The position numbers and the translations under genes were made by a program. From positions 1 to 21,128 of the IMG/VR virus record IMGVR_UViG_3300029448_000531: DNA of 21,128 nt, one strand, 5' to 3'. The notes under the pieces were generated by a model. It saw only the letters and a list, made by a program, of their open reading frames with translations. It did not search any database and was not told the origin of the DNA. The number at the start of each line of letters is the position of its first letter. Positions within the stretch are counted from its first letter, which is position 1. The stretch comes from a virus. Of this stretch, positions 1,144 to 20,964 are shown one piece after another.

Positions 1144-1318
1144 AGAAAAATTGGAGTTGCTTAAAAAACTTCAACACAAAGAACATGCTTGGTCAGCTAG
1201 TCTTATGACAAATGGAATATGTACTACTGATATGCTTAAGACTGAGAGTGAAATTAAATCTCTTAGAAATGAATTAAAGCACCAAGATGTACAAGAACTC
1301 TTAGCTGCAACAGGCTAA
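1133..1318 (+). CDS. Small helical protein of unknown function
   Basis: A 61-residue, mostly helical protein (EKLELLKKLQHKE at the N-terminus, a second charged helix KTESEIKSLRNELKHQD near the C-terminus), likely a helical hairpin or short coiled coil. GAGGAG seven bases before the ATG supports the start at 1133, inside the end of the preceding gene. It is the last of the four plus-strand genes. Its TAA overlaps the TAG of the homing-endonuclease gene read from the other strand, so the two transcripts converge with no space for a terminator between them. Confidence 0.65.
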   Translation: MLSKEKLELLKKLQHKEHAWSASLMTNGICTTDMLKTESEIKSLRNELKHQDVQELLAATG

Positions 1319-1746
1319 GTTTTATTAGGTTTTAAAAAACTAAACTTTTTTCCTAGGGATTCTTTCGGCTTAATAAACTCATAGTGGTTTATAATTTTTA
1401 ATAATCTTTCTCTTTTAACAGTACAATAAGGTAAAAATAATTTTGCTAAGTGTAATGCTTTTTGATGAGAGCACCTCCATCTCCATTGATTTGTTTTACC
1501 AAGTGAGCCCTTACCAATACCTTTAAAATGAATACTACCTACTCTTACAATATCATAAAAATTTTTTATGCAATCTAAATCAGTCATTGCAACTTCCATT
1601 GCAACATTCCATTTTAAATATGTTTTACCGTTAGGCTTCTTACATTTGTATTGAGCATAATTAATGTTACCTTCACCATCAAATAATCCTGCTGCATAAG
1701 CTATTAAATCTTTGTTATCATGAGGAAAATTTCTACTTAGCATCAC
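1315..1746 (-). CDS. LAGLIDADG-type homing endonuclease, single motif
   Basis: A 143-residue protein with one LAGLIDADG-type motif, YAAGLFDGEG (residues 17-26), in which E25 would be the metal-binding catalytic acid. Downstream features usual in the family follow: a GSIHF strand, a WRWRC strand and the helix LFLPYCTVKRERL. Single-motif members act as homodimers that cut a long, near-palindromic DNA site and drive spread of their own gene. The gene is free-standing, not in an intron or intein: it begins 14 bases inside the 3' end of the polymerase gene, which appears intact. ATG codons at 1746 and 1743 are both possible starts; a GGGG-containing purine run precedes them. It could also have been recruited as a regulator. 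Confidence 0.8.
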   Translation of the reverse strand: MMLSRNFPHDNKDLIAYAAGLFDGEGNINYAQYKCKKPNGKTYLKWNVAMEVAMTDLDCIKNFYDIVRVGSIHFKGIGKGSLGKTNQWRWRCSHQKALHLAKLFLPYCTVKRERLLKIINHYEFIKPKESLGKKFSFLKPNKT

Positions 1747-3607
1747 CCCAACTTTTCCCTAATCCAACGTCAACTACTGAAGGTACTTTAAACTCAATTG
1801 ATTTTTCCATAATACCTTTTATTTTTTTTGCATGATCATCATCTTTTATATTAAAACAAAGTTCATCATGTATTTGTAACATTGGTAAATGACCTTGATT
1901 ATAACAATCTAACATAGATTGTTTTGTTTGATCAGCTGAGGATCCTTGAATTAATCTATTTAATGCTTTGTAAGTATAGGCTCTCTTAATATTATCTTTA
2001 CCATATTTTGCTACTGCATTATCAAATGTTTCGGCCTGGTGTAATCCAAAGTCTCTTGTTTCCCATTTATCAAACCTACACTTCCTACCTTTTTTAGTTC
2101 TTATTACACCCTTCTCATCTGCTGCTAACTTACATCTATCAGATAGTTTTCTAATAAAAGGTACCTTCTTATTATATTTTTCAATTAATTCATCTGCTTC
2201 ATCCTTAGTAACTCCTAACGACAAGGCTAATTTATTCTTACCCATTCCATACATAATACCAAGGCCAATAGTCTTGGCTTGTGTTCTCTCAATACCTACA
2301 AGGTCTGCAACTGTTTGATGAAAGTCTGCACTATTATCTTTGTATGCTTCAACTAATTCTTGAGATCCTGCATAACCATTGTCTCCAATAGATGCTGCAT
2401 AATGTACAGTCATCCTAGGTTCTTGTTGTGAATAATCAAATGAGCCCCATTGGTGGCCTTCTTCAGGTATAAATAGCGATCTAATCTTGGGACCAAGATC
2501 TTTATTTCTAGCAGGTACTTGTTGTAAGTTTGGGTTACTCATTGATAGTCTACCCGATACTGTCCCTCCTAAATCTGATCTAAGTTGTTGTATCTCTCCA
2601 TGAATTCTACCTTTGACTTGGTATCGAAGTATTGATGATAAGAAGGTACTATGAAACTTATTTACCTCCCTGGCTTGCACAATCAATTGCGCTAGTTTAT
2701 GTTTATTATTTATCAACCAATTTTGTGTAAAGGAAGGCTCTTTTGTTTTTTCAGTTCGTGGATAGTCTAACTTCATTTTGTCAAAAGCTTTGGCAATCTG
2801 GCGTGATGCCCAAATGTCTACTTCTATTCCTGATTCTTTTTGTATGGCCTCCAGTATTTCTTTTTCTTGGATCAACATTTCTTTTTTTAGTTGTTCAGCT
2901 AATTCCACTTGGACTCTCACTCCTCGTTGACGCATTTTTATTAGAACCGGAATTAGTTGTTGTTCTAAATCCCAAACTGTTTCTAGACTTTGAGTTCTTA
3001 TCTCTTGCTTAAATCTTTGCCATAACTTTAATGTTAACACTGCATCTTGCTCTGCATAATAACCAACATGTTCTGCAGGTAACTTCCACATCTCTGCTTT
3101 AGGATCTATGCCATGAGCTGCGGCAGCTTCTCTTAATTCTGTCTCTGCTTTTATTTCACCAAGATAATCAACTGATAATGCATTTAATGAATAACTAAAT
3201 CTATTCTCATCTATTAATGCTGCAGCTATCATTGTATCTACTATATGTCCGTTGACCGTGATCCCTGATGCTTCAAGCCATCCTACATCATACTGAGCAT
3301 TATGAAATATTTTAGTGCAGGGTAAGCTACAAACTTTTTTCATGTATGCTTTAACTTGTTCTGGTATCATGTTACCACCACCTAAGTGACCAAATGGAAA
3401 GTATCCTTGCCAACCATCCACTGCTACTGCAAATCCTACAATCTCTCCTTTACCTAAAGCCCAACCAGCTCCAAGCTTTTCATTAATACCATCATCTTTA
3501 GTTTCTAAGTCGATTGCTATTTCAGTTGCACTAGATAGATCTTTATATTCTGATGGTGTATTCCACATAGATTTTTTAAAAGTTAATGTAAGTTGTAGTC
3601 CGTTCAT
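1733..3607 (-). CDS. polA: Family A DNA polymerase with 3'-5' exonuclease domain
   Basis: A 624-residue replicative polymerase, full length for the phage type, which lacks a 5' nuclease. The exonuclease domain shows AIDLE (D33, E35), NAQYD (103-107) and YYAEQDA (183-189, D188), so proofreading residues are present. The polymerase domain has motif A DYSQQE (391-396), motif B RTQAKTIGLGIMYG (441-454, K445 and Y453) and motif C IHDE (579-582). The residue aligned with E. coli Pol I F762 and T7 Y526 is leucine (L449), as in a large group of marine viral PolA proteins. The ATG overlaps the stop of the zinc-ribbon gene (TAATG). A homing-endonuclease gene overlaps its 3' end. It acts with the primase and helicases encoded upstream in the same operon. 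Confidence 0.96.
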   Translation of the reverse strand: MNGLQLTLTFKKSMWNTPSEYKDLSSATEIAIDLETKDDGINEKLGAGWALGKGEIVGFAVAVDGWQGYFPFGHLGGGNMIPEQVKAYMKKVCSLPCTKIFHNAQYDVGWLEASGITVNGHIVDTMIAAALIDENRFSYSLNALSVDYLGEIKAETELREAAAAHGIDPKAEMWKLPAEHVGYYAEQDAVLTLKLWQRFKQEIRTQSLETVWDLEQQLIPVLIKMRQRGVRVQVELAEQLKKEMLIQEKEILEAIQKESGIEVDIWASRQIAKAFDKMKLDYPRTEKTKEPSFTQNWLINNKHKLAQLIVQAREVNKFHSTFLSSILRYQVKGRIHGEIQQLRSDLGGTVSGRLSMSNPNLQQVPARNKDLGPKIRSLFIPEEGHQWGSFDYSQQEPRMTVHYAASIGDNGYAGSQELVEAYKDNSADFHQTVADLVGIERTQAKTIGLGIMYGMGKNKLALSLGVTKDEADELIEKYNKKVPFIRKLSDRCKLAADEKGVIRTKKGRKCRFDKWETRDFGLHQAETFDNAVAKYGKDNIKRAYTYKALNRLIQGSSADQTKQSMLDCYNQGHLPMLQIHDELCFNIKDDDHAKKIKGIMEKSIEFKVPSVVDVGLGKSWGDAK

Positions 3608-3726: not shown

Positions 3727-3961
3727 TTTTTAAGTGTTGTTTTTCTAACTCACAATAATGAATAATTTTATCTATATCTTCTATGGTTTTACCTTTAAAA
3801 AGATACCTACATACATACTTAATTACATTTGCTTGAAATGGGTTGAGACTATTTTTTCTAATAAAAGTCCACGGTTGAATTAAAAAACTACGGTAGTGAT
3901 TCCCACCAATTTGTTTTTCATCAGCATCTTTAGCTTCATCAAACATTCCTTTATTTGTCAT
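3704..3961 (-). CDS. DUF3310 (SaV-like) protein
   Basis: An 85-residue protein with the signature of the phage DUF3310/SaV-like family: QIGGNHY, then IQPWTFI, then a helix ending NVIKYVCRYLFKGKT and a final IEDIDKIIHYCE. The family includes the C-terminal part of T7 gp1.7, a nucleotide kinase, so a role in nucleotide metabolism during replication is plausible, but this short form lacks a P-loop. I place the start at 3961, not at the upstream ATG at 3976, because AGGAG lies five bases before the 3961 codon. It overlaps the end of the helicase gene by 11 bases and the zinc-ribbon gene by 23 bases. Confidence 0.85.
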   Translation of the reverse strand: MTNKGMFDEAKDADEKQIGGNHYRSFLIQPWTFIRKNSLNPFQANVIKYVCRYLFKGKTIEDIDKIIHYCELEKQHLKNEKKNKV

Positions 3962-5594
3962 TTTTCTCCTGTACATATATTAAATAGTCTGAACCAATTG
4001 GGTAGTTAAACTTATAGTCTGTTCTTAGTAAATGTAAAGTTTTTTTTGCTCTTGTTGCACCGGTATACCAAACCTTACGTTCATCACTTTTTTCTTGTTT
4101 GTTTTTATTTGCATAGTCAGATGGATAGTTACCTTTACTGTAAAGTACAACATGATTTGCTTCACCACCTTTGACACTATGTATTGTATCAATTGTTATT
4201 ATTGGATCTTTATCTAATTCTTTTTGTCCATATCTTCTTAACAATCTTATAAAGTGTCTTACTTGTCTAGGTTTAAAATTTCTTCTCAGTATCCAATACC
4301 AAGGTTTATTTTTTTGTGTATCTTCTAATGCTAAACCACACCACTCTTTTAAAGTTTGAAAATCATACTCCCTTAGATCTGGTTCGTTTCTCCAGAACTT
4401 ATCTAATCTATATGCAGGGTCTTCTAGTTCTCTAATATATTTGACCATGTTACGTGCTGCTCTTTTATCAATCTTTTTATTATTACTAATTGTTGTCCAA
4501 GCTTTAATAGCTTCCCATTGTTTCTGATCAAAACATTTAGTACCTCTATTGTCTTTGTAATATAAACCTGCATCTTTAGCTAACATTCTAAGTTCATTTA
4601 CAGTTTCATTAATACGACCTAAGATATACCAATCTTCTTTTAATGTTTCGAAAGGTATCTCTTTGAATGATAAATAACTTTTAACAGATCCTTTTGAGTC
4701 TCCTGGTTGATACTCTTTCTCTTCACTATCTCTTATCCCTCTTCTAATTACTTGAGAGAATCGATGTATGGCTTCACCAAATCTTTCGGTCTTTCTTAAT
4801 TTTACTTTCCGACCTGGAAAGAACTTAGTAAAATATTTTGGATCAGCTCCATTCCATTTGTATATGGCTTGGTCATCATCTCCTGCAAGATATATCCTAT
4901 CTACTTTAGGTGCCATCTTATATAACACTGACCATTGTAACGGAGTGCAGTCCTGTGCTTCATCTAAGATTAAAACTTTAAGTGGTGGGAAATCTACTTC
5001 TGTTATTGCTCTGTGAATCATATCATCAAAGTCTATGAATGATCTCTCTCCTCCACCTGTCTTATAATGTTCGTAAGTATCTATTTTTCTTTTAAATACT
5101 GTAAGTGAATCTCTTTTATAACTTTCCATCTTGTATGCTTCTTCTGGATCAATTAATAAATTCCTAGCTTTACTGTAGACTCCTAGTGACCAATCTTTAT
5201 ACATGAAGTTATCATCTGCTAATCTTTTATCTGAAGTCTTAATTACTTTAGTCTGTAATGCAAAATCAATTGTACAATCTTTAGGGTCAAATACTTCTTC
5301 TGGAAAATATCTTCTACAATAAGTATGTAATGTTTTGAATCTTGAAAAATCTTCTGTAGAATAATTTGGAAAAGACTCCATAGCTCTTCTGACTGCAGTG
5401 TTAACAGCTTTGTTAGTAAAGGATAGATAAGCAATATCATTTGGCCTTACACCTTTTCTTAAATAACTTTTAAGAACCTTCTCAATCAGTGTGTATGTTT
5501 TACCTGTACCTGGAGGACCAAAGATCTTTACTGTTTTATGGTAAAGATCTTTTAATATTCTAAGTTCTAAACTTTCCTGTGTGGAATTCGTCAT
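3951..5594 (-). CDS. UvrD/Rep-like superfamily 1 DNA helicase
   Basis: A 547-residue ATP-driven DNA helicase of the SF1 UvrD/Rep class, expected to translocate 3' to 5' on single strands. Motifs in order: Walker A GPPGTGKT (26-33), Ia AYLSFTNKAV (55-64), II DEAQD (211-215), III GDDDQAIYKW (238-247), IV around KTERFG (268-273), V TIHSVKGGEAN (470-480) and VI VWYTGATRAK (508-517). All catalytic positions look intact; the protein is shorter than UvrD because the 1B and 2B insertions are reduced. With no DnaB or T7 gp4 helicase in the window, this is the leading candidate for fork unwinding. GGAG precedes the ATG at 5594, which lies 35 bases inside the primase gene. Confidence 0.92.
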   Translation of the reverse strand: MTNSTQESLELRILKDLYHKTVKIFGPPGTGKTYTLIEKVLKSYLRKGVRPNDIAYLSFTNKAVNTAVRRAMESFPNYSTEDFSRFKTLHTYCRRYFPEEVFDPKDCTIDFALQTKVIKTSDKRLADDNFMYKDWSLGVYSKARNLLIDPEEAYKMESYKRDSLTVFKRKIDTYEHYKTGGGERSFIDFDDMIHRAITEVDFPPLKVLILDEAQDCTPLQWSVLYKMAPKVDRIYLAGDDDQAIYKWNGADPKYFTKFFPGRKVKLRKTERFGEAIHRFSQVIRRGIRDSEEKEYQPGDSKGSVKSYLSFKEIPFETLKEDWYILGRINETVNELRMLAKDAGLYYKDNRGTKCFDQKQWEAIKAWTTISNNKKIDKRAARNMVKYIRELEDPAYRLDKFWRNEPDLREYDFQTLKEWCGLALEDTQKNKPWYWILRRNFKPRQVRHFIRLLRRYGQKELDKDPIITIDTIHSVKGGEANHVVLYSKGNYPSDYANKNKQEKSDERKVWYTGATRAKKTLHLLRTDYKFNYPIGSDYLIYVQEKNDK

Positions 5595-16418: not shown

Positions 16419-17300
16419 TTACTTATTAAGTTTCAACTCATCGCCAAAACGACCTTCGTATTGATGTTCGCCTACATGGACAATCTTATCTGCAATATAG
16501 GCATAACATTTACCCCCAATATCTTTCCAAAGCTTACAAAAAGAAAAGTCTTCACCAAGATAAGTTTTAGTTTTTGGGTCATGTATACAATCAAAGAAAT
16601 TCCACATATTAGGTTTATCTATATATTCACCATTTATTACAGTTTTCTGTACAATAGATTTCTCTGGATAATGTTTAATCAGTTTTTCAAATACAGATCG
16701 TTTTATTAACATACATCCTGTAGGACTATGAGTTACTTCTATAATACCTTTATTTACTTTAATATTAGCATCATCTGCTACTCTTATTGGATAAGTGTTT
16801 AAAGCTTTTTTTAAATCATTAGGTGTTTTAATTTTATTGTCTTTAATTCTATCCATAGCTTTATCCCACATAATTGTTTTTAGAGGATAAGGAATAGATA
16901 TTATGTCCTTATCTTTATCAATCATTTTAAATATTGACTCAGGGTTAAAATAAATGTCAGAATCAATAAATAACATATGTGAATAATTTGATTCTAAGAA
17001 ACCAGATACACATAAATTTCTACCTTGTGTTACTAATGAAGATTTCATTAATTGAAATTTTATTTTTGTTTTTTTCTGTAAAGCTAGTTTTTGTAATTCA
17101 AGTAAAGCTTGAGTATAATGTATAGAACACTCACTATGCACAGGGGTTGCTAAGAATATCGAATGAGGTGAAATACCATTTGATTTAGTTTCTTCCTTCC
17201 ACATTGGTGTAATAGCTTTATCAAAAGGTTTTGTTTCTATTTCTACTTCCTTAACTGTTTGATATGTATCTTCGTTTACAAAAGTTTTATTTTCGCTCAT
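16419..17300 (-). CDS. GT-A fold glycosyltransferase
   Basis: A 293-residue sugar transferase. After a 40-residue leader the fold begins SIFLATPVHSECSIHYTQAL, then the strand KIKFQLMKSSLVTQGRN and the metal-binding DxD motif in MLFIDSDIYF (D113, D115). A later GCMLIKRSVFEKL and the acidic FFDC/LGEDFSFCKLW region complete a GT-A core, as in family 2-like enzymes. It would transfer a sugar from a nucleotide donor in the cytoplasm; acceptor unknown. AGGAG six bases before the ATG supports the start, which is 14 bases inside the GT-B gene. The pairing with a second transferase suggests consecutive steps on one acceptor. Confidence 0.82.
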   Translation of the reverse strand: MSENKTFVNEDTYQTVKEVEIETKPFDKAITPMWKEETKSNGISPHSIFLATPVHSECSIHYTQALLELQKLALQKKTKIKFQLMKSSLVTQGRNLCVSGFLESNYSHMLFIDSDIYFNPESIFKMIDKDKDIISIPYPLKTIMWDKAMDRIKDNKIKTPNDLKKALNTYPIRVADDANIKVNKGIIEVTHSPTGCMLIKRSVFEKLIKHYPEKSIVQKTVINGEYIDKPNMWNFFDCIHDPKTKTYLGEDFSFCKLWKDIGGKCYAYIADKIVHVGEHQYEGRFGDELKLNK

Positions 17301-18216
17301 TCAGGGCTCCTTGTAAAAAGTTTGTCCATTCTTGTCCTTTTTTATTCCAATTATAAAATCTTTTATAGAATTTTTGTTGTTCATTTAAATGGTCTTGTAT
17401 GTAATCTTCATGTAAATATGTTGATGCAACTTTAATTGCTTCAGCAGTGCTTTGAGCCATAATTTCATAATCATCAGTGTAATTTATATATACAGGCCAT
17501 TCGGCACAAGTTTCATATAATGCACCAAAGTTATTTGTTATTACATGCAAGCCTGCTGCCAAAGGTTCTAAAGCAGATGCACAAAAAGTTTCTTCAAATA
17601 TACTTGGATAAACAAATAAATCATAATCAGTTATGTGTTCTAAAATATATTCATTTGGTTTGTAACCAATGTAATTTACATTTTTTAATTTATGTGCTTG
17701 ATCATAAAGTGGTTTAAATAATTGATCATGGCTAGATTCAAATTCACTACCATAAATTTTTCCAGAGCTGTAAACATCTAATGTTATATTTGGATCATCT
17801 ATTTCTTGCATAGCCCTTAATAAAACATTTAAACCTCTCCATGGCGTGCATTGATGAATTATTTTTATTGGATCACCTTTTTTATAAACTTTTCTTTTTG
17901 GAAAATTGTTTATACCGTTTTTTATTACTATAGATTTTTCAGTTGGTATATCAAAATAATATCTAAACTTTTCATAGTTCCAATTACTATTAAATACATA
18001 CCAATCATATTCATCATGCCTATCTTTATTTCTAAAAAAAGATTGCAAGTTTGGTTGATCGTAAGAATTTTTTTGCCAAAGTATATTTAATTTTTTTGGA
18101 TCTAAAGGAACTTTGCCTGGTATAGATGTACATATTTGTACTTGATCTAACAGTTCTTTTGAAACATGCTTTTCTAGAAGCTCCATTTGTAATTCAGTAG
18201 CTCCTCTTGGTTCCAT
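17287..18216 (-). CDS. GT-B fold glycosyltransferase, family 4-like
   Basis: A 309-residue protein with the C-terminal half of a family 4 transferase: IIHQCTPWRGLNVLL (119-133), the strand LDVYSSG (147-152), NYIGYKPNEYILEHI, DLFVYPSIFEETF and the nucleotide-sugar motif E-x7-E (E209 to E217), followed by PLAAGLHVITNNFGALYE. The N-terminal half is short but complete, starting MEPRGATELQMELLEKH, so the gene seems intact. Donor and acceptor are not readable. Likely targets are virion proteins, phage DNA bases or host surface sugars. It starts by a TAATG overlap with the 66-residue gene. Confidence 0.85.
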   Translation of the reverse strand: MEPRGATELQMELLEKHVSKELLDQVQICTSIPGKVPLDPKKLNILWQKNSYDQPNLQSFFRNKDRHDEYDWYVFNSNWNYEKFRYYFDIPTEKSIVIKNGINNFPKRKVYKKGDPIKIIHQCTPWRGLNVLLRAMQEIDDPNITLDVYSSGKIYGSEFESSHDQLFKPLYDQAHKLKNVNYIGYKPNEYILEHITDYDLFVYPSIFEETFCASALEPLAAGLHVITNNFGALYETCAEWPVYINYTDDYEIMAQSTAEAIKVASTYLHEDYIQDHLNEQQKFYKRFYNWNKKGQEWTNFLQGALNERK

Positions 18217-18416
18217 TATTTTTTTGTTTCTGCGCCTAGGGTTACTCTTGTTACAGTTATTTCGAGGTCTTGTCTAAAATCATTTTCAGTAGTATCAGTA
18301 TTGGGATCAGCAACATCAAGATTAAAATGCTCTTTGCTATCATATACTTTTCCCGTTCTTTTATTTTTAATAATTTCTTTTGCTACCGCAGGTATTTTAT
18401 GAGGATCTTTGATCAT
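18216..18416 (-). CDS. Small conserved virion-module protein, unknown function
   Basis: A 66-residue protein that I do not recognise. It has a basic N-terminal helix (DPHKIPAVAKEIIKNKRTG) and an acidic, Asp/Thr-rich middle (DVADPNTDTTENDF), ending in a short strand-like LEITVTRVTLG. It contains no cysteine and no membrane span. Its ATG overlaps the TGA of the 44-residue basic gene and its TAA overlaps the ATG of the GT-B gene, so it sits in the middle of a strictly coupled string of genes. Confidence 0.65.
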   Translation of the reverse strand: MIKDPHKIPAVAKEIIKNKRTGKVYDSKEHFNLDVADPNTDTTENDFRQDLEITVTRVTLGAETKK

Positions 18417-18547
18417 TGTCTACGTCCTTGTCTATTATATTTTTTATTATGTTGCAACTTTTTTTTCTTATTTAAATTTTTACAATGTCTTCGAGGTCTT
18501 TTTCTAGGTTTATCTCTTTCTACAAAGTCTTTAAATTTTCTAGCCAT
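18413..18547 (-). CDS. 44-residue strongly basic protein
   Basis: A short frame encoding a peptide with 20 Lys/Arg residues in 44 and almost no acidic residues after residue 12. It starts MARKFKDFVERDKPRKRP and ends KKYNRQGRRQ. I have seen comparable small basic proteins in marine phages, with no known role. Nucleic-acid binding, for example DNA condensation in the capsid or RNA binding, is the obvious inference. AGGAAA just before the ATG serves as ribosome site; the start lies eight bases inside the preceding gene and the TGA overlaps the next ATG (ATGA), which makes the reading frame credible. Confidence 0.75.
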   Translation of the reverse strand: MARKFKDFVERDKPRKRPRRHCKNLNKKKKLQHNKKYNRQGRRQ

Positions 18548-18875
18548 TTTCCTGTGATCTATCTATTAAGGCATAACTAATAGCACCTGTAATAGTATTT
18601 GCACTAGCCGCTTGTATTTTTAAAACATCACTAGCTTCCATATTTAAACTTGATAATACTAAATTAGTAAAATTTTTATTAAGTTGTGAATGACTTATTT
18701 CAACATCTGATCCTCCACTCTTTTGCAAAAAAGCGTCTACATCTACATTAGATGCAGTCTTATGATTTACTTGTAAAGATTTTACAATTATAGTTGCATC
18801 TGCAGGACATGTAAGAATAGTAGTCTTATCAGTCGTTGTTAAATCAAATGTTTCACTTTTATATCTTATTGTCAT
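18540..18875 (-). CDS. Small beta-rich probable virion protein
   Basis: A 111-residue protein dominated by predicted beta strands: ETFDLTTTDKTTILTCPADATIIVKSL at the start, VDVDAFLQKSG in the middle and the closing ASDVLKIQAAS plus TITGAISYALID. This layout (a small jelly-roll or Ig-like sandwich) fits a capsid decoration, neck or fibre-associated protein; similar proteins occur near tail genes in marine phages. One cysteine (C24) and no catalytic motif. Its ATG overlaps the TGA of the 54-residue gene, and its end overlaps the 44-residue basic gene by eight bases. Confidence 0.65.
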   Translation of the reverse strand: MTIRYKSETFDLTTTDKTTILTCPADATIIVKSLQVNHKTASNVDVDAFLQKSGGSDVEISHSQLNKNFTNLVLSSLNMEASDVLKIQAASANTITGAISYALIDRSQENG

Positions 18876-19036
18876 TGCATAAAGTAATTAAACGAATCTT
18901 GTTCGTTTTTCAAGTCTTGTTGATAAGAAGTATTTAATTGATTTTCAATTGTAGCCAATCCTTGGTTAATTTGTCTAAAACCTTCGACACTATACTCTTG
19001 TGGTGGTTCGGGTACATATACGTTAATTTTTGCCAT
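18872..19036 (-). CDS. 54-residue protein, unknown function
   Basis: A short frame starting MAKINVYVPEPPQEYSVEGF and followed by a Gln/Asn-rich amphipathic helix (FRQINQGLATIENQLNTSY, then DLKNEQDSFNYF). The proline-rich start followed by one helix suggests a small structural or chaperone-like helper. Its ATG overlaps the stop of the gp10-like gene (TAATG) and its TGA overlaps the next ATG (ATGA), so it is probably translated by coupling. I know similar small proteins next to tail genes in marine phages; the function is not known. Confidence 0.7.
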   Translation of the reverse strand: MAKINVYVPEPPQEYSVEGFRQINQGLATIENQLNTSYQQDLKNEQDSFNYFMQ

Positions 19037-20964
19037 TATCTTCTACCATCTGGTTTAACATCAGCTCTAAATGTTCCAAATCTCCATGTTTCATTTGTAG
19101 CTGTATTTTCAATTTTAATGTTAGCTAATCTTCCTCTAGCTCTTGTATCTATTTTTTGTGTTGAAGATGATATAGTAAAAGGACCAAGCTGTGAAGAAGA
19201 ACCAGAGTCAATTGGAAAATTTTTAAGAAATATTGTTACTTTTGCATTTCCTTGTAGATTTTTAAAATCTGGTAAAAATCTACTTAGTCGTAACATATAT
19301 TCTCCATCTCCATCAGTAGGTAAATCAAAATCTCCAGATTGTATAAACGCAGCTATAGCAGTGGTTGTTCCATTAAGTGCGATTTCGTTAGTGCCTACTT
19401 CTTGTGCAAAATAAAGAGTTGAGCCAAAAGTATTGGTTGCTCCACTTAAAATAGGTAATGAAGGTGTCCCTGATGTATTGTATTCAGTTGCATAAGGTAC
19501 ATCATATGTGCTTGCATCTGCATAAGAACTTCTAGCTAATGTCATTGTCGACCAAGTATTTTCAACATAATTATAAACAACAGATCTATTATTTTGTGTA
19601 GCTGGATTTCCAGATGGTGTACCTGCAGGATAAAACCAAATAATTTCGTTAAATAAAGAATTATGAGAACCATAAATAATTTCATTAGAAGAGTAATTAA
19701 TACCAACATTTGATCCGGTAGTCGTGAATACAAAATCTTCTACAAGTGACGGCAGTAATTTAACCGTACCATCAAATACAAAAAAACCTCCACCTGCTCC
19801 CATCCAGAATACTTTACCGTCCGCATAAACAGTTGCATGTTGTCCTATACATCCACAGTTAGATCCTACTTGTCTAATAGAAAATGTAAATGGAGGACCA
19901 ACAAATTGCATAGTATAAGCTGCTTGGTCTGTTAAAATTAAGTTATAATCTTTACCTGATACTGCTGCTACAATTTTATTACCTGTATCTAATCTAAAGG
20001 TACCTGCAGTATTAACTGATGTTGGTTGATAAACACTATAATTTTCTTGGTCACTAAACCTAATAAACATAGGATCTTGTGTTGTCGTATTACCTATTGT
20101 TGTTTCAGTTCCAAAATGAACAACGTGTCTATCTCTATCAGAAGTAATTGTAAGTCTTGTTTTTGTAGGAGCTCCAGTCATAATAGTTGCTCTTACTGTT
20201 AAAGGATTTGATACAGCTGGGTTCCATACAAACGTTTTACCATCTTTAACTGTAGCAATTAATTGTGCACCAAAATTATCTAGTGACCATGTTCCAGGAT
20301 CTAGAATAACCGAAGAAGTTGTAGAACCTGAACCCCAAGTTAATCTACTCCATGTACTTGTACCCCAACCATAACCATAAGTTTGAATTGTAGGGCCTAT
20401 TTCTTCGTAAGGATTAATACTAGCACTCCCTGCAGTAGACATACCTGTACCAGTTTCATTAGATTTCATTTGAATTGTAAATGTACTTGTTGTAGGAACT
20501 GTTAAAATTTCAAAAGTAAAATCAGTAAAGTTAGCTGTTGTATAACCAGTTGCTCCTCCTCCTGGGAGTGTGACCGAAGTAAATGTAATATACTCTCCGA
20601 CATCGAGTCCGTGACTTGATTTTGTAACTGTAACTGTATTTGAGTTTTGTGTAGATGTAAATGTTGCTCCAGTAATTGCTGTAGCTAACGGAGTAATATC
20701 ATAAAATTTATCTTCATAATAAATGTATAATGCTTTTGATGTACCTAATGCTGCATATCTTCTACCTTCTAAATCTGTCCAAGTGTGTTGTGCACGTGTA
20801 GGACCAGATATTGTATCAGTTCCTATAGCAGTAAAGCCACCAATTTTTTCTGGTTGTCCATATCTAAATCTTACAAAATCACCATCTATCCACTGACCTT
20901 CTGCGCCTGATGGTGTATCTGCTTTGTTAAATCCTGGGACTATTTGTACATTTCTTAAAGGCAT
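19036..20964 (-). CDS. P22 gp10-like packaged-DNA stabilisation / tail protein
   Basis: A 642-residue, Gly/Thr/Ser-rich, beta-rich protein. Its N-terminus (GFNKADTPSGAEGQWIDGDF from residue 11, then VRFRYGQPEKIGGF) and repeated short strands such as RYAALGTSKALYIYY, FVWNPAVSNPL and GKVFWMGAGGGFFVFDG resemble the phage-stabilisation family of P22 gp10, a beta-propeller-type hub that plugs the portal after packaging and joins the tail. That identity is my recognition of the family and not a computed match. Length is close to the larger marine members. The start at 20964 has only a weak ribosome site. Its stop overlaps the 54-residue gene. Confidence 0.72.
   Translation of the reverse strand: MPLRNVQIVPGFNKADTPSGAEGQWIDGDFVRFRYGQPEKIGGFTAIGTDTISGPTRAQHTWTDLEGRRYAALGTSKALYIYYEDKFYDITPLATAITGATFTSTQNSNTVTVTKSSHGLDVGEYITFTSVTLPGGGATGYTTANFTDFTFEILTVPTTSTFTIQMKSNETGTGMSTAGSASINPYEEIGPTIQTYGYGWGTSTWSRLTWGSGSTTSSVILDPGTWSLDNFGAQLIATVKDGKTFVWNPAVSNPLTVRATIMTGAPTKTRLTITSDRDRHVVHFGTETTIGNTTTQDPMFIRFSDQENYSVYQPTSVNTAGTFRLDTGNKIVAAVSGKDYNLILTDQAAYTMQFVGPPFTFSIRQVGSNCGCIGQHATVYADGKVFWMGAGGGFFVFDGTVKLLPSLVEDFVFTTTGSNVGINYSSNEIIYGSHNSLFNEIIWFYPAGTPSGNPATQNNRSVVYNYVENTWSTMTLARSSYADASTYDVPYATEYNTSGTPSLPILSGATNTFGSTLYFAQEVGTNEIALNGTTTAIAAFIQSGDFDLPTDGDGEYMLRLSRFLPDFKNLQGNAKVTIFLKNFPIDSGSSSQLGPFTISSSTQKIDTRARGRLANIKIENTATNETWRFGTFRADVKPDGRR

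Follow-up and report, generated by a model that had tools for sequence, protein, structure and literature searches.

The window analysed here, a viral record of 21,128 bases with a GC content of 33%, contains a gene for a very basic peptide, and the question raised by the locus is what such a peptide does for the phage. The initial annotation placed the gene in a virion gene chain and proposed a histone-like or protamine-like packaging peptide or, alternatively, an RNA-binding regulator. The gene has the following surroundings.

18413..18547, minus strand: basic peptide gene, 44 aa, a phrog_17967 member (ORF, profile match, homolog alignments, pN well below pS)
18550..18553, minus strand: candidate ribosome-binding site AGGA (direct sequence reading)
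18540..18547, minus strand: 8-nt overlap between the end of the upstream gene, whose stop is at 18540-18542, and the start of the peptide gene (sequence, ORF ends)
18413..18416, minus strand: ATGA overlap of the peptide stop with the start of the next gene (sequence, ORF ends)
18540..18875, minus strand: upstream neighbour, 111 aa, cluster C0, no assigned function; beside the peptide gene in the HTVC023P-type arrangement, PHROG matches weak
18216..18416, minus strand: downstream neighbour, 66 aa, no assigned function; also the next gene in HTVC023P, phrog_26858 match weak (E 0.012)
17287..18216, minus strand: group 1 glycosyltransferase, next but one downstream of the peptide gene (PF00534, E 9.8e-14)
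19036..20964, minus strand: virion structural protein, 642 aa, third gene upstream (phrog_3287, E 1.2e-79)

The peptide starts with ATG and, as had been described, 20 of its 44 residues are Lys or Arg (11 Lys and 9 Arg); three residues are acidic, the computed pI is 11.7 and the net charge at pH 7 is about +16.7. Its Lys/Arg share of 45% makes it by far the most basic of the 53 six-frame ORFs of at least 40 aa in the window, the runner-up having 22%. The AGG of the putative ribosome-binding site lies three bases before the peptide ATG, so the site is plausible although its spacing is close, and the ATGA coupling to the next gene that had been noted earlier is present. The downstream neighbour resembles cluster C8 by eye. 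The neighbourhood is that of HTVC023P, with 76% identity across 99% of the 821 bases from 18216 to 19036 (blastn). An Rfam scan of the window gave no match. Elsewhere in the window, an ORF at 1315-1746 (minus strand), running into the end of the polymerase gene for DNA synthesis (1733-3607), has by eye the look of a LAGLIDADG homing endonuclease, with the motif AAGLFDGEG.

The peptide gene is real and conserved, and belongs to an existing unnamed phage cluster, phrog_17967, of which the window protein is a member without distinguishing features. It matches the full profile with an E-value of 2.9e-15 (residues 1-42 of 44, profile positions 1-41 of 41), and all 32 members of alignment A2 match the same profile at E up to 0.1. 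The A2 consensus is MAKxKFKxFVPRxKPKKRPRRHKKxLNKxEKRxxKKYNRQGR, and a second form ends in RYKGQGR. The family has neither function nor description: none was found in the literature searched, supplements being outside its scope, nor did that literature describe the spread of phrog_17967 over pelagiphage types. The earlier impression that the peptide is undescribed agrees with the databases, as there is no named function, the PHROG families are listed as 'unknown function', Pfam and NCBIfam yielded nothing meaningful for the window protein or the 32 A2 members, and PDB searches gave nothing significant, including no ribosomal match for A2 up to E 10. A match of one of the 32 members to the Waglerin Pfam model (E 0.0035) and a PDB match to a TGF-beta mimic (E 0.22) were taken as chance.

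The frame evolves as a protein-coding gene. Over 541 pairs with pS between 0.05 and 0.6 and non-identical proteins, mean pN was 0.20 and mean pS 0.51, and the nearest kin shown, loci L011 and L012, gave 0.03 and 0.54. The gene is under purifying selection. Conservation of the frame in related phages, on which the initial annotation had made its proposal depend, is strong, with homologs aligned and pN far below pS.

Distant relatives extend the family beyond one cluster. The window peptide has no match to phrog_516 up to E 1; the two families are linked only through the HTVC008M protein, which matches both phrog_17967 (1.5e-20) and phrog_516 (0.0044). phrog_516 corresponds to the cyanomyophage 'T4-LIKE GC 394' (P-SSM7, 1.1e-24; P-RSM4, 1.3e-23), whose proteins of 45-48 aa are likewise basic and end in YRGQGR/K, though their N-terminal half differs and their gene sits just upstream of gene 25 (directly so in P-SSM7 and S-SM1, next but one in P-RSM4). 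For each of 14 outsiders, the score against a profile built from 31 pelagiphage-type sequences was compared with those of 2000 shuffled versions of itself. The real score stayed above every shuffle in 11 cases, P-HM2 among them, and was reached by 1, 32 and 34 of 2000 shuffles for P-SSM7, S-CBP42 and HTVC011P, respectively. The kinship of the distant members, judged by these scores, exceeds shared composition except perhaps in S-CBP42 and HTVC011P. The HTVC011P relative lacks the QGR end, so if it is a true member this element is not indispensable everywhere. Since the HTVC008M and cyanophage relatives lie near gene 25, T4 uvsY.-1 and uvsY.-2 were considered as relatives and rejected, as they bear no resemblance by eye and profile A4 finds nothing in T4.

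A tblastn search with family members against 50,697 phage records, with matches listed up to E 10, returned mainly Pelagibacter phages, along with a few environmental clones, one uncultured HTVC023P-like record and four Methylophilales phages; the query is short and basic, and many single E-values exceed 0.1. Together, the tblastn listings, blastn and the A4 profile search match 51 named pelagiphages, a hand count without a denominator in which HTVC011P, HTVC021P, HTVC031P, HTVC041P and HTVC048P are weak or partial. The SAR11 phage types that carry the family are HTVC010P, 019P, 023P, 103P, 106P and 111P, the siphophage Kolga and the myophage HTVC008M, and distant relatives occur in phages of OM43, roseobacters and cyanobacteria. 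With the HTVC008M peptide as query, the matches extended to 17 cyanophage records at E 3-9, to roseophage CRP-9 and to a marine single-cell virus, and S-CBP42 was listed in a separate tblastn search with a family member. Matches to an Erwinia neck protein (E 7) and Escherichia TL-2011b (E 6) were set aside as chance. Intact relatives are unannotated in Baldr (L007:518-640), HTVC121P (L103 near 3953-4087), P-HM2 (L106:4001-4138) and S-CBP42 (L108 near 4000).

Runs of consecutive accessions tell how regularly the family occurs. It is carried by 10 of 10 records in MN698239-248, 7 of 7 in MW273920-926, 4 of 4 in KC465898-901 (HTVC011P weakly, 2.1e-5 by profile) and 9 of 10 in MH598798-807, where HTVC200P was matched by profile only (2.3e-6), HTVC031P partially, and the tenth, MH598804, was in no tblastn listing and was left out of the profile search. 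All ten of the Ubiqueviridae checked among the 11 in Table 2 of PMC10504331 matched, the eleventh being Skadi. At E up to 1, phrog_17967 was matched in 18 of 19 records or genomes, mostly chosen as tblastn matches (HTVC111P only at 0.026, HTVC011P not at all), versus one of 14 control genomes, Corynebacterium glutamicum, taken as chance; phrog_516 at E up to 10 was matched in 5 of the 14 control genomes versus only 2 of 16 records. Profile A4 at E up to 1 matched 9 of 11 records, some of which are rows of A4 itself and one of which, S-CBP42, reached only 0.08; it had no match in T4 or the OM43 phage Venkman. A gene-independent sample was provided by 80 contigs found through the window's DNA polymerase, of which the 18 over 15 kb were searched: six gave a match with an E-value no higher than 1 (1.5e-22 or below for three of them, 3e-7, 0.003 and 0.04 for the others), and of the five among the 18 that exceed 40 kb four matched, the contigs being fragments in which a non-match is not proof of absence. 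Among viral contigs at least 267 relatives were confirmed, and 80 loci were kept.

The family is nearly absent from cellular genomes, those searched holding it only on phage-like contigs. A scan of genome contigs with one narrow pattern gave three loci. The A2 profile matched one of 385 genomes of one class, that of an uncultured alphaproteobacterium, and two of 32 of its order, and profile A4 matched one of 385 and one of 295 genomes in two classes, the starting genome both times; SAR11 may lie outside both samples. Two cellular-genome contigs that were examined hold phage-type ORFs by eye, one a window-like polymerase and the other an NrdB-like ORF with small phage-like genes. The peptide thus represents a phage-only family of small proteins under selection, very widespread in SAR11 phages whatever their type.

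Whether the peptide belongs with virion genes was addressed by comparing 102 contexts, which fall into at least eight arrangements, followed below by four further ones.

Window, HTVC023P: tail genes and glycosyltransferase
HTVC027P: M15 peptidase with small genes
HTVC019P: terminase and lysozyme
HTVC010P: M15 peptidase
HTVC033P: large genes without assigned function beside ferrochelatase/oxygenase genes
Bylgja, HTVC309P: nrdA/nrdB
Kolga: with the thymidylate synthase gene
HTVC111P: row of DNA-binding genes
HTVC106P (further): head region
HTVC103P (further): tail fibre
HTVC008M (further): baseplate
Melnitz (further): behind phoH, about 1.3 kb upstream of tmRNA

With so many unlike neighbourhoods, the peptide gene is not tied to virion genes. 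The description of a virion gene chain holds for the window, where the 642-aa upstream gene belongs to phrog_3287, and fails for the family.

Several smaller observations concern the neighbours. Ribonucleotide reductase genes flank the peptide gene in HTVC309P and Bylgja (between nrdA and nrdB), one precedes it in CRP-9, and an NrdB-like ORF accompanies it in L201 (loci L008, L009, L107 and L201). Small genes of phrog_20984 and phrog_24646 are common to the HTVC019P and HTVC027P types (L003:5427-6001; L094:9830-10460), and their clusters (C3/C2) are also near the peptide gene in HTVC010P, so that the peptide gene is not the only small gene to cross pelagiphage types. A short gene with CxxC pairs and the look of a zinc ribbon (cluster C6; for example L031 and L109:5002-5229, minus strand) lies directly upstream of the peptide gene in 16 contexts, and in some its end overlaps the peptide start. 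The nearby HTVC027P gene gp18 has a weak zinc-ribbon match below the cut-off. HTVC027P gp30 (L094:15768-15944, minus strand), called ArfA in PMC12753301, scores 20.6 bits against PF03889, whose curated cut-off is 25.5.

Sequence identities are out of step with those of the neighbours. In the blastn alignment with Bylgja, the matching stretch (490-624 of the query) coincides with the peptide gene from end to end. Relative to the window, the HTVC023P peptide is 63% identical versus 79% and 81% for the two upstream genes, the L017 peptide 77% versus 43-58% for its neighbours, and the L022 and L029 peptides 89% versus 59% for the virion protein. Over the 27 window-type loci, mean identity is 80% for the peptide and 64-72% for four neighbours compared in 17 to 27 of these loci. 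Such discordance within the window's own arrangement suggests allele exchange. The family tree shows 28 changes of neighbourhood versus a shuffled mean of 50.6, but only 5 of its 79 inner branches are starred, and because it is so poorly resolved no transfers were counted from it. Taken with the arrangements, the family looks like a single-gene cassette swapped between phages.

Conservation within the peptide is informative only at certain columns. Because the search for viral loci used the patterns F[VEI]xRxKP[KPR]KR and K[KP]Y[NV][RKG]QGR, part of the conservation seen among the loci is a product of the search itself, and the argument for constraint rests on columns outside these patterns; for the three genome-contig loci the search pattern contained the His, and every locus passed the tblastn cut. 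Across 73 distinct sequences, whose charge ranges from +13.6 to +18.8, His21, Lys23 and Lys27 (window numbering), all outside the viral search patterns, are each present in 73 of 73, while Lys and Arg are swapped at other columns (48 Arg and 25 Lys at column 3; 34 Lys and 22 Arg at column 16). In the wider set A4 the three residues are no longer invariant. AlphaFold2 with 32 sequences gave a mean pLDDT of 68, a pTM of 0.20 and one helix at 27-33, consistent with a peptide that is disordered without a partner.

The peptide very likely binds nucleic acid. We tentatively favor, as a possible explanation of the whole, an exchanged peptide that would be disordered alone and fold upon a specific nucleic-acid target inside the infected cell. 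Specific contacts would be made through fixed Arg, Lys, His and Tyr residues and the C-terminal Q-G-R element, and the peptide would act on something common to these hosts, independently of virion architecture. Expression would probably occur with middle or late genes, as many copies adjoin structural, terminase, lysis or nucleotide genes. The first choice of target would be a structured RNA, most simply the ribosome, and the second AT-rich DNA. The choice of RNA reflects the range of hosts (SAR11, OM43, roseobacters and cyanobacteria), all of which should contain the target, and a residue make-up that resembles that of ribosomal extensions. The preference is only slight, since DNA is also common to all hosts and placement among late genes favors DNA.

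Known systems of both kinds share general properties with the peptide. Small ribosomal or ribosome-directed proteins such as bS21, ArfA and phiKZ014 are likewise small and basic and include phage-encoded examples, although none matches the peptide family in sequence. Kolga carries bS21, and phiKZ014 binds 5S rRNA (PMC10914614). A ribosomal protein by sequence was rejected: the best PDB match of A4 is L29, which at E 2 has no weight, and no Pfam or NCBIfam ribosomal family was matched. The PDB searches likewise gave no match to another solved RNA binder, and the ribosome-rescue factor ArfA was rejected as the Pfam scan of 32 members found no PF03889 match. What the peptide has in common with AT-hook proteins is a basic stretch that contains Pro, Gly and Arg and reads KKRPGRHKK in some members; the genome is also AT-rich. 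The core of the AT-hook is R-G-R-P, which is absent from the window peptide, and none of the 32 members has a Pfam AT-hook match.

The frequent placement among late genes, which counts against the favored explanation, would equally suit a role in the virion or in packaging, with the peptide as a DNA-bound counter-ion or internal protein that condenses the genome or travels with it. That role is unlikely, if still a serious contender. The high charge throughout the family would fit it, as would a double-stranded DNA target common to every host, and the gene adjoins terminase in HTVC019P and HTVC022P, the head gene region in HTVC106P, tail genes in the window, HTVC023P and HTVC103P, and baseplate genes in HTVC008M and cyanophages. 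The gene is, however, also found next to phoH, in the company of thymidylate synthase and in the gap from nrdA to nrdB, and fixed Lys positions and an invariant His are unsuited to mere neutralization of charge. Protamines and histone-like packaging peptides resemble the peptide in size and charge and differ in that its Lys and Arg are not interchangeable at several positions, its His, Tyr and Gln-Gly are invariant, and it has no tie to packaging genes; charge without sequence specificity, as in a protamine, is not what the alignment shows, even though some columns do interchange. The virion proteome of S-SM1 comprises 41 measured proteins (PMC3037559), and in this phage the orthologue, T4-GC 394, is still labelled 'hypothetical protein' and a neighbour 'virion structural protein'. 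This is a weak point against packaging, because Lys/Arg-rich peptides escape tryptic mass spectrometry. The initial annotation's observations are thus confirmed and its interpretation stands in part: the peptide is conserved and strongly basic, but the packaging idea rested on a position beside virion genes that not all relatives share, and the RNA-binding regulator offered as the alternative appears to fit the evidence better.

It is rather unlikely that the peptide is a transcription factor, one that would redirect transcription by attaching to promoter DNA, to nascent RNA or to the host's RNA polymerase in the manner of known small phage regulators. The basic, disordered make-up resembles that of arginine-rich RNA-binding peptides, and in one arrangement the peptide start overlaps the end of the preceding zinc-ribbon gene. 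Among phages, small proteins directed at RNA polymerase are frequent (PMC11323111). The gene has no consistent early position, however, and it occurs both with a phage RNA polymerase (Kolga, HTVC022P) and without one (HTVC027P), the polymerase of HTVC022P and its lack in HTVC027P being as reported in PMC12753301. A lysis-associated or other accessory peptide is highly improbable: an M15 peptidase or lysozyme lies a few genes away in HTVC010P, HTVC027P, HTVC100P, Greip, Lederberg, HTVC019P and HTVC022P, and small membrane-like genes are nearby in several types, but other types hold the gene far from lysis genes and by eye the sequence has no stretch like a membrane segment. A spurious ORF, which the very short length, the overlaps with both neighbours and the missing annotation in four phages might suggest, is rejected as next to impossible, given a pN far below pS and a frame kept in neighbourhoods with different flanks.

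For the favored peptide that folds on a nucleic-acid target in the infected cell, a further reading concerns host takeover. It is quite improbable that the family is a host-takeover peptide, near-universal in phages of streamlined ocean bacteria, that recognizes the ribosome or RNA in a sequence-specific way and passes between phages with almost no other genes in common. If this were true, host translation would be targeted, and the peptide could contribute to the ribosome-deprived 'zombie' state reported after infection by HTVC027P and by HTVC031P (PMC11066056). In HTVC027P the family is represented by gp19, and HTVC031P has a partial DNA match across it. Time courses exist for HTVC022P, where the peptide is gp51, and for HTVC027P, and the main text of that study names neither gp51 nor gp19 (PMC12753301).

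According to PMC10504331, the Ubiqueviridae have no core genes in common with the HTVC019P, 111P, 103P and 023P types, Kolga, Melnitz and HTVC008M, and one, TerL, in common with HTVC106P. The peptide family, which occurs in 10 of 11 Ubiqueviridae as well as in each of the other groups named, appears to be an exception to that report, one presumably missed by the earlier comparison owing to its small size. SAR11 are the ocean's commonest bacteria and their phages are among its most abundant viruses. The peptide gene may serve as a marker for pelagiphage contigs, and the peptide is short enough to synthesize, so that its binding partner could be found directly. That a gene of 44 aa is present in all of these types, and apparently swapped among them, suggests that it does something these phages require inside such cells.
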